Below, in pieces: positions 4,749-38,837 of a stretch of 38,837 nt of DNA (position 1 is its first letter; every line of letters begins with the position of its first letter). Made by a program: the position numbers and the translations under genes. Origin of the DNA: Thermoanaerobaculia bacterium (GTDB lineage: Bacteria; Acidobacteriota; Thermoanaerobaculia; Multivoradales; JAGPDF01); NCBI GenBank assembly GCA_019911865.1, contig JAIOJQ010000146.1, forward strand, positions 1-38,837, written 5' to 3'. Below the pieces are notes generated by a model. It was not told where the DNA came from. It saw only the letters and a program-made list of their open reading frames with translations, and did not search any database.

Positions 4749-6247
4749 GCGCCCCGGCGAAGACGCTCGGCGAGCTCGTCCGCGCCGGTTACCAGCCGCG
4801 CACGGTACGCGCCGAGATCCGCGCCAACCTGATCGCCAAGCTGCGCGCCGGCGAGACGCTCTTTCCCGGCATCCTCGGCTACGACCGGACGGTGATTCCG
4901 GGCGTCGTCAACGCCCTGCTCGCCGGCCACGATCTGCTCCTGCTCGGACTGCGCGGCCAGGCGAAGACCCGGATCCTGCGCGCGCTGGTCGATTTCCTCG
5001 ACCCGGAAATCCCGGAGCTCGAGGGGAGCGAGATCCACGACGACCCGCTCGCGCCGGTTTCGACCTGGGGGCAGCGGCTGGTGGCCGAGGCCGGCGACGA
5101 CGCGCCGGTCGCCTGGCTCCCCCGCTCGGAGCGCTATCGCGAGAAGCTGGCGACGCCCGACGTCTCGATCGCCGACCTGCTCGGCGACATCGACCCGATC
5201 AAGGCGGCGACCCGGCGGCTGACCTACGCCGACCCCGAGGTCATCCACTTCGGCATCGTGCCGCGCACCAACCGCGGCATCTTCGCGATCAACGAGCTGC
5301 CCGACCTCGCGCCGCGCATCCAGGTCGGCCTGCTCAACCTGCTCGAGGAGCGTGACCTCCAGATCCGCGGCTTCCCGGTGCGGTTGCCGCTCGACCTGCT
5401 GTTCGCCTTCTCGGCCAACCCCGAGGACTACACCAACCGCGGCACCATCATCACGCCGCTCAAGGACCGTATCGCCTCGCAGATCCTCACCCACTACCCG
5501 CCGGACGTGGCGCTCGCCGCGCAGATCACCGCGCAGGAGGCCTGGGTCGAACGCGACGACGGTCCGCAGGTCGTGGTTCCGGACTTCGTGCGCGAGCTGA
5601 TCGAGGAGATCTCGGTCGCGGCGCGCGAGAGCGAGCTGGTCGACCAGTCCTCGGGCGTCTCGGCGCGCGTCGCGATCGCCGCGATCGAGCTGCTGGTCTC
5701 GAACCTCGAGCGCCGGGCGCTCGCGATCGGCGACTCTCCGGTCTGGCCGCGCGTCTGCGACCTGCCGCCGCTGGCGCCGGCCATCACCGGCAAGCTCGAG
5801 ATGGTCTACGAGGGCGAGCAGCAGGGGCCGGAGCTGGTGGTCAGGAAGCTGGTCGGCAACGCCTGCGCGAAGCTCGCCGGGCGCAAGCTGCCGGAGATCG
5901 GCCGCGAGGCCGGCTCGGGCAGCGATGACGACAGCGGTCCGTGGGCGCCGATCCTCGCCTGGTTCGCGGCCGGCAACGAGCTCTCGGTCTCCGACGAGAC
6001 TCCGTTCGAGCAGCACGAACTGGAGCTCGCCCGCGTGCCCGGCCTCGCCGGCCTGGTTGCGGAGCTCGGCGCGACGCGCGGAGAGCGCGCCTTCTGGGCG
6101 GAGCTCGCGCTCGAGGCGCTGCACCAGGCGGTGAAGGTCGCGCGCCAGGACCTCGACAGCCGCGTCAGCTACAAGGAGCTGCTCCGCTTCCAGCTGCTCA
6201 AGCCGCCGGTGCACCGCGGCCCGCGGCGCAGCGGCGACGCGAACTGA
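4745..6247 (+). CDS. MoxR/magnesium-chelatase-like AAA+ ATPase
   Basis: This 500-residue cytoplasmic protein has Walker A GLRGQAKT (residues 68-75), a Walker B-like [11 protein letters not shown] (178-188) with Asn in place of the usual first acidic residue before Glu184, sensor 1 [10 protein letters not shown] (221-230) and a PLKDRI segment (238-243). The [17 protein letters not shown] insert is typical of the MoxR/ChlI clade. The C-terminal half is helical with no recognised domain. AAA+ ATPases of this clade work with VWA-domain partners to insert metals or remodel protein complexes, and a VWA gene follows 2 bases after its stop. The start overlaps the trxB stop. The client is unknown. The Asn-Glu Walker B may be a family feature rather than a defect. 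Confidence 0.82.
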
Positions 6248-36370: not shown

Positions 36371-38383
36371 ATGCCGGAAGCCATCCTGCGCACCACCGCC
36401 TGTCCGCTCGACTGTCCCGACGCCTGCACGCTCGAAGTGACGGTCGAAGGAGACCGCCTGGCCCGCGTCGCCGGTGCGCGTACGGGCAATCCGGTCACCG
36501 ACGGCTTCATCTGCGGCAAGGTGCGCCGGCTGCCCGAGCACGTGCACGGCGAGGCGCGCCTGCGCCAGCCGATGCGGCGGAAGGGAGCCAAGGGTTCCGG
36601 CCGCTTCGAGCCGATCTCCTGGGACGCCGCCCTCGACCTCGCCGCGGCGCGCCTGGTCGAGACCCGCGACCGGTTCGGCGGCGCCGCGATCCTCCCCTAC
36701 TCCTACGGCGGATCGAACGGCCAGCTCACCCAGGACACCACCGACGCGCTGCTCTTCCGGCGGCTCGGCGCGTCGGCGTTGGCGCGCACCGTCTGCGCGG
36801 CCCCCTCGGGGAGGGCCGCCACCGGCCTCTACGGCAAGATGCCGGGCGTCGCCTACACGGACTATCCGGAGGCGCGACTGATCGTCGTCTGGGGCGCCAA
36901 TCCCCGGACCTCCGGTGTCCATCTCGTCCCCTGGATCCACGCCGCGCGCCAGCGCGGCGCGCGGCTGGTGGTCGTCGACCCGCGCGTCACCTCGCTGGCG
37001 GCGCAGGCCGACCTCCACCTCGCCCCGCGGCCCGGCACCGACGTCGTGCTCGCCCTGGCGGTGATCCGCGAGCTGTTTGCCTCCGGCCGCGCCGACCGCG
37101 AGTTCCTGCGCCGGCATGCGCGTGGCCACGAGGAGCTCGAACGGCGGGCCGCCCGCTGGAGCCTCGAGGCCGCGGCCGAAGTCTGCGGCCTCGAGTCCGG
37201 CGAGATCGCCCGCTTCGCCGAGCTCTACGCGGCGAGTTCACCGGCAATCGTGCGCTGCGGCTGGGGGGTCGAGCGCAACCGCAACGGCGGTTCGGCGGTG
37301 GCGGCGATCCTCGCCCTGCCGGCGGTGGCCGGCAAGTTCGGCGTGCGCGGCGGCGGCTACACGATGTCCAACTCGGGCGCCTGGAAGTTCGCCGCCTTCC
37401 CGGTCGGCGACGCCCCCCCGCCGCCACGCACGATCAACATGAACCTGCTCGGCGAGGCGCTGCGCGCGGAGGCCGAACCGCCGGTCCGGCTGCTGTTCGT
37501 CTACAACTCCAACGCCCTCGCCACGACGCCCGACCAGAACGCGGTGCGGCGCGGCCTGGCACGCGAGGACCTGTTCACCGTCGTCTTCGACGCGGTCGCC
37601 ACCGACACCGCGGCCTGGGCCGACCTGCTGCTGCCCGCCACCACCTTCGTCGAGCACCGCGAGCTGTCGCGCGGCTACGGCGCCTACGCGCTGCAGCTCG
37701 GCGAACCGGTGCTGCCGGCGGTCGGCGAGGCGCGCGGCAACTACCGCGTCTTCGGCGACCTGGCGGTGCGCTGCGGCGTGGCGCGGCGCGAGGAGATCCC
37801 CGCCGAGGCGGCGTGGGTCGAGGCGCTGCTCGACTCGACCGGCAAGGGGGACGCCCTGCGCGCCGAGCTGGCCGAGCGCGGCCTCGGCACCCCGCCGGAC
37901 GGCGAGGCCCCGGTGCAGTTCGTCGACGTCTTCCCGCGCACCGCCGACCGTCGCGTCGACCTGGTTCCCGACGAGCTCGACCGCGAAGCGCCGGAAGGGC
38001 TCTACGCTTTCCGCGCCGAGCCGCAGGAGGCGCGCTATCCGCTCGCCCTGATCTCGCCGGCGAGCGACCGCACCACCTCGTCGACCTTCGGTCAGCTGCA
38101 CGAGGGCGAGGTCGCGGCGCGCCTCCACCCGCGCGATGCGGCGGCGCGCGGCATCGCGGACGGGGCCCGCATCCGCATGTTCAACCCGCTCGGCGAGGTG
38201 ATCTGCCGCGCCCGCCTGTCGGAGTCGCTGCGCCCCGGCGTGGTCGAGCTGCCCAAGGGGCTCTGGCAGCGCCACACCGAGAACGGTTCGACCGCCTGTG
38301 CGCTGGCTCCGGCGACGCTGACCGACCTCGGGGGCGGCGCCTGTTTCAACGACGCGCGCGTGGAAGTCGAGGCACTCCCCTGA
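36371..38383 (+). CDS. Molybdopterin (Mo/W-bisPGD) oxidoreductase, catalytic subunit
   Basis: This 670-residue DMSO-reductase-superfamily protein opens with a 4Fe-4S site: Cys11, Cys15, Cys19 (ACPLDCPDAC) and Cys48 (GFICGK). Then come SYGGSNGQLTQDTTDALLF, a likely active-site region TVCAAPSGRAATGLYG with Cys142, the cofactor-binding IVVWGANPRTSG, and VVVDPRVT. The C-terminal MopB domain (PLALISPASDRTTSSTFGQL to LPKGLWQRHT) binds the second pterin. No twin-arginine signal is present, so it is cytoplasmic. It appears self-contained: no iron-sulfur or membrane subunit is adjacent. The substrate is unknown; the group is close to formate-dehydrogenase-like and polysulfide/thiosulfate-reductase-like proteins. 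Whether Cys142 is the metal ligand is inferred. Confidence 0.88.
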   Translation: MPEAILRTTACPLDCPDACTLEVTVEGDRLARVAGARTGNPVTDGFICGKVRRLPEHVHGEARLRQPMRRKGAKGSGRFEPISWDAALDLAAARLVETRDRFGGAAILPYSYGGSNGQLTQDTTDALLFRRLGASALARTVCAAPSGRAATGLYGKMPGVAYTDYPEARLIVVWGANPRTSGVHLVPWIHAARQRGARLVVVDPRVTSLAAQADLHLAPRPGTDVVLALAVIRELFASGRADREFLRRHARGHEELERRAARWSLEAAAEVCGLESGEIARFAELYAASSPAIVRCGWGVERNRNGGSAVAAILALPAVAGKFGVRGGGYTMSNSGAWKFAAFPVGDAPPPPRTINMNLLGEALRAEAEPPVRLLFVYNSNALATTPDQNAVRRGLAREDLFTVVFDAVATDTAAWADLLLPATTFVEHRELSRGYGAYALQLGEPVLPAVGEARGNYRVFGDLAVRCGVARREEIPAEAAWVEALLDSTGKGDALRAELAERGLGTPPDGEAPVQFVDVFPRTADRRVDLVPDELDREAPEGLYAFRAEPQEARYPLALISPASDRTTSSTFGQLHEGEVAARLHPRDAAARGIADGARIRMFNPLGEVICRARLSESLRPGVVELPKGLWQRHTENGSTACALAPATLTDLGGGACFNDARVEVEALP

Positions 38384-38392
38384 GCGCGCCGC

Positions 38393-38760
38393 TCAGGGAG
38401 CCGGCTCGACGCTGAGCGCCGCCGAGCGCGGCGCCGCGCTGCGCGATTCGAACGCCGCCAGCACCACCGTTGCCGCCGCAGTCCGCCGCAGTACCGCCGG
38501 CCAGGGGAACGCGCACTCCCCCGCCGGGCAGGCCACCCCCGGCTGGCAGGCGGCCGGCGACCCCCCGTCGGCGAGCGCCGCGTAGGAGATCGCCCCGGGA
38601 ATCGTGCCGGCCGGCAGGTCGAGCCGCAGCAGGACGCAACCCGGCGGCAGCGTCTCGGCCAGCCGGTCGAGCGAGGCGAGCGGAACCAGGGAGAGCCGGG
38701 CCGCCAGGTCGCTCGGACAGCCGGCGCCGCCGCCCTCGAGCCGCACCTCTATCCGCGCCG
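38393..38760 (-). CDS. Partial cysteine-containing protein of unknown function
   Basis: Reading leftwards from the palindrome centre, the frame gives ARIEVRLEGGGAGCPSDLAA, then RLSLVPLASLDRLAETLPPG, a CQPGVACPAGECAFPW stretch with three closely spaced cysteines, and ends SAALSVEPAP before the stop at 38393. The composition is protein-like with beta strands (CVLLRLDLPAG, ATVVLAAFES). The 5' end is lost in the 74-bp palindrome. A GTG at 38746 could be a start but is probably internal. It is convergent with the molybdopterin oxidoreductase with a 9-base gap. The paired Cys suggests an extracytoplasmic, disulfide-bonded domain. No family recognised. Confidence 0.5.
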
Positions 38761-38797
38761 CGGCGCGGATAGAGGTGCGGCTCGAGGGCGGCGGCGC
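38724..38797. repeat. Perfect 74-bp palindrome (37-bp arms, no spacer)
   Basis: The arms are 38724-38760 and 38761-38797 and are exact reverse complements, centred at GCGCCG/CGGCGC. Beyond 37 bases they diverge at once. The left arm is coding on the minus strand (RIEVRLEGGG), and the right arm encodes the same residues on the plus strand. It lies 40 bases from the end of the window. Confidence 0.95.
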
Positions 38798-38837
38798 TCA
38801 CTCCGACGCCCCGCGCCACGCGGGGGGAGGCCGGTGG

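Follow-up and report, generated by a model that had tools for sequence, protein, structure and literature searches.

A loop-free 74-bp palindrome near the end of a Thermoanaerobaculia contig is almost certainly a fold-back artefact

How does a perfect palindrome without a loop come to lie next to the end of a bacterial contig, and does it belong to the chromosome at all? The stretch of DNA analysed here (the window, 38,837 bases) is the complete contig C425 of a draft genome of 458 contigs totalling 3.76 Mb (completeness 92.6%, contamination 6.2%) whose relatives are MAGs of the Acidobacteriota / Thermoanaerobaculia. The palindrome is built from a left arm (38724-38760) and a right arm (38761-38797), each of 37 nt, with 100% complementarity and a spacer of 0 nt, exactly as a preliminary description of the sequence had stated; because the window is the entire contig, the palindrome stops 40 nt short of the right contig end. 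Within the window there is no second inverted repeat of this kind, and a search of the rest of the genome found no further occurrence of the palindrome. At the window's GC content of 71.7%, random sequence would yield about 1e-15 palindromes of this kind, and DNA folding of 38700-38837 compared with shuffles gives z = -10. Chance is thus excluded, leaving biology or artefact as the remaining choices. We assign a probability of about 0.95 to the reading that the palindrome does not belong to the chromosome but arose as a fold-back (snap-back) join, through either laboratory handling or the assembler.

The gene broken at the palindrome centre

Both arms had been placed inside coding sequence, which is correct for the left arm, located in a real gene fragment, but not for the right arm, which belongs to no gene. 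The fragment (38393-38760, minus strand) encodes roughly 120 aa from the C-terminus of a secreted-type protein. Over 120 aa it is 44% identical to an open frame of 636 aa in G001, a genome of the same genus, and it has homologs in further relatives; it has no family in Pfam or NCBIfam. This homology includes the left arm, whose minus strand encodes (A)ARIEVRLEGGGA, where the preserved C-terminal domain begins, and it ends at the palindrome centre. Roughly a dozen codons past the centre, the reading frame hits a stop. Because the homology reaches the centre and ends there, the left arm is genuine and the right arm is its copy; the exact reverse complementarity, together with the survey of contig ends given below, points to an artefactual copy, and the right part occurs nowhere else in the genome.

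The same peptide, ARIEVRLEGGGA, is read outward from both sides, confirming the earlier observation of RIEVRLEGGG on either side of the centre, and this speaks for two gene copies joined as an inverted duplication. However, the part held in common is just 37 nt long, the right side goes on as HSDAPRHAGGGRW with no homology to the conserved GCP..LAARL segment, and the C-terminal domain has only one match in the genome, with no second copy found. An inverted duplication is therefore already contradicted, and its probability is negligible.

The whole gene can be followed in the relatives, where it is intact. In the G001 protein, an N-terminal part with weak similarity, below Pfam's cut-off, to the carboxypeptidase regulatory-like domain PF13620 is followed by a long tandem repeat rich in Pro, Ala and Lys and then by the C-terminal domain. 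When the N-terminal part of this protein was used as query, a match was found in the genome under study at C379:115-519 (minus strand, 46% identity), and the N-terminal part matched again, inverted, at C379:2-199. Contig C379 (locus L257, C379:1-2019) also begins, on its left, with an exact fold-back: two 136-nt arms and a loop of 41 nt occupy 1-313, within the gene's N-terminal half. The gene thus extends from C379 into C425 and lacks its middle, and both broken ends fold back; the two contigs are probably adjacent in the chromosome. The tandem repeat of G001 sits exactly at the part that is missing here, and by analogy the lost middle is probably a GC-rich proline/alanine repeat at which assembly fails. 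We observed, as a general feature of this protein family (window 38393-38760, minus; L029 6009-7916, minus), a signal-like start followed, in order, by a regulatory-like domain, a long Pro/Ala-rich linker, in many cases a CxECxxGE motif, and a C-terminal domain; this conserved C-terminal domain is without a Pfam or NCBIfam family.

The split gene also bears on whether the palindrome could be a hairpin telomere or another terminal hairpin of a linear replicon. A covalently closed hairpin, when read through, does appear as a spacer-free palindrome near the end of a sequence, but here the site is not the end of a replicon: it lies inside a gene that continues on C379, and an ordinary metabolic gene adjoins it. 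This neighbour, an intact molybdopterin oxidoreductase of 670 aa (36371-38383, plus strand; PF00384, PF01568, PF04879), is convergent with the broken gene, an arrangement kept in G001. Moreover, the trait is common to at least 23 contig ends with unrelated sequences and differing arms (see below). The split gene already contradicts a telomere, which we regard as having next to no chance of being correct. The oxidoreductase is widespread among Acidobacteriota MAGs, and its score is well under the cut-off of every listed NCBIfam subfamily.

A more serious competitor is that the assembly broke because of a real, perfect 74-bp palindrome in or next to the gene (a recombination site, a cruciform or an inverted micro-duplication). 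In its favour are the exactness of the sequence, the 40 nt of unique sequence that follow, and the tendency of a genuine palindrome, too, to break contigs. Instability in cells, which had been raised against such a structure, is a weak argument at 74 bp, a length short enough for cells to tolerate; in bacteria, marked inviability concerns palindromes longer than roughly 150 bp. Against a real palindrome stand the in-frame stop that it would place some dozen codons ahead of the conserved domain of a gene intact in relatives, and the corresponding place in those relatives, where no palindrome, even with 12-nt arms, was found; nor does the window's palindrome occur on another contig. The 23 other fold-back ends of this genome, at unrelated places and never internal, also argue against it, and we consider a genuine palindrome very unlikely. 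A narrower version, in which the gene of this strain is interrupted by a real short palindrome, such as a recent inverted micro-duplication accompanied by a 40-nt insertion, is slightly less likely still. Overall, the biological readings offered in the preliminary description are opposed by the presence of a gene in one arm only, the lack of a second copy, the intact and palindrome-free relatives, and the location of the other half of the gene on a contig that also folds back.

Fold-back at contig ends of the draft genome

The strongest evidence for a fold-back join comes from the other contigs. We surveyed 143 contigs of the same genome besides the window, leaving out contigs reading N, and tested 203 ends. 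An exact inverted repeat flush with the end, with arms of 19-136 nt, was present at 23 of them (L228, L161, L111, L116, L185, L134, L192 and L025 among others), while at 5,783 pseudo-ends placed inside the same contigs the longest fold-back was 16 nt (none above this length; Fisher p about 1e-36). Not one of the 39 contig ends tested from other assemblies folded back (p = 0.018). Contig interiors hold a few ordinary palindromes or hairpins, with arms of at most 27 nt. Arm sequences vary between the fold-back ends, and the loci are unrelated. Folding back is thus a trait of contig ends in the assembly studied, and it is because about one in nine of these ends folds back alike, and interiors do not, that an artefact is almost certain. 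This genome-wide comparison lends strong support to the suggestion in the preliminary description that a fold-back join, a known artefact of contig ends, could account for the palindrome.

The window's end, with its palindrome 40 nt from the terminus of C425, differs from the rest in one respect: it is the sole fold-back end found that is not flush, owing to its 40-nt unmatched tail. A flush inverted copy is typical of these ends and not strictly required. The tail lowers certainty about the mode of formation, but not about a join at a failing contig end.

With about 11% of the surveyed contig ends of this draft genome bearing false inverted repeats, up to 136 nt long, the finding serves only as a warning. 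Such ends may be taken for terminal inverted repeats, hairpin telomeres, transposon ends or regulatory palindromes, and genes located there are truncated or corrupted.

Formation of the join and origin of the tail

How might such ends arise? Coverage would have been lost in the GC-rich, repetitive middle of the gene, and the few molecules or reads extending the contig may have been chimeras that link one strand to the reverse complement of another lying nearby or of its sister, either by hairpin priming or by annealing and filling in of palindromic ends. Such chimeras would usually be outvoted by genuine reads; at a GC-rich repeat gap they may not be, so that the assembler extends into them, taking them because no genuine reads compete. 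At the window's end, a loop-free fold could have formed around the short GC palindrome GCGCCG/CGGCGC, the right arm would be the inverted copy that arose in library preparation or assembly, and a further switch would have added the 40-nt tail.

Comparable artefacts are known. In short-read libraries, chimeric molecules consisting of a strand fused to its own reverse complement are described by the PDSM model, in which partly single strands pair at inverted repeats or short palindromes and are then filled in (PMC10908179). The likeness extends to geometry, with zero-loop joins at short palindromes and looped joins at inverted repeats; in contrast, those artefacts were seen as soft-clipped reads in human capture data and ours are metagenome contig ends, and a 40-nt tail is not predicted by the model. 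Whole-genome amplification creates artificial palindromes (PMC6218980), and long reads show foldback artefacts (PMC12870357); in both, as here, a molecule is folded onto its own complement, but there the observations were made in long reads. A 460-bp perfect palindrome construct in E. coli (PMC4245961) is likewise a spacer-free, perfect inverted repeat, but it is far longer, engineered and internal to the chromosome, whereas the present palindrome occurs only at a contig end. Our literature search on contig-end palindromes in metagenome assemblies found none.

The tail (38798-38837), which reaches the contig end, does not continue the copied strand. The preliminary description had proposed searching for the sequence after 38797 elsewhere in the assembly; at an exact match or with up to 3 mismatches, the tail finds only itself, and in the relatives it gives only weak, short, scattered GC-rich matches. 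The tail is probably the product of a second chimeric switch, which is the simplest reading, or the sequence of another read. Its last codon specifies Trp, and in G001, G002 and G004 a Trp stands at an equal distance before the GC(P) motif; this hints weakly that the tail may derive from the missing part of the gene. Such an origin in the gene's own upstream part is a guess, since placing the tail directly before RIEV clashes with the five bases CGGCG that precede RIEV in the left arm. A match of 38788-38822 to contig C101 (86% over 36 nt) was rejected as a chance match, in which only a short GC-rich stretch and scattered bases are shared.

The contigs also carry a signature of the assembler. 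Where contigs of this genome adjoin, they share an overlap of exactly 141 nt, which implies an assembler k of 141, and the default series of MEGAHIT has 141 as its last k. Every fold-back arm is shorter than 141 nt, as expected because a longer exact fold-back would fuse with its own reverse-complement path in the de Bruijn graph. Among the 24 arm lengths, eleven coincide with k or k-1 in the usual MEGAHIT series, compared with an expected fraction of 12% (p about 5e-5, for a post hoc grouping), so that this clustering is only suggestive; the window's arm of 37 nt is neither k nor k-1, a point against the fold-back reading of the palindrome. Arm lengths of 136, 118, 94, 39, 28, 26 and 20 nt recur, which suggests an assembler effect.
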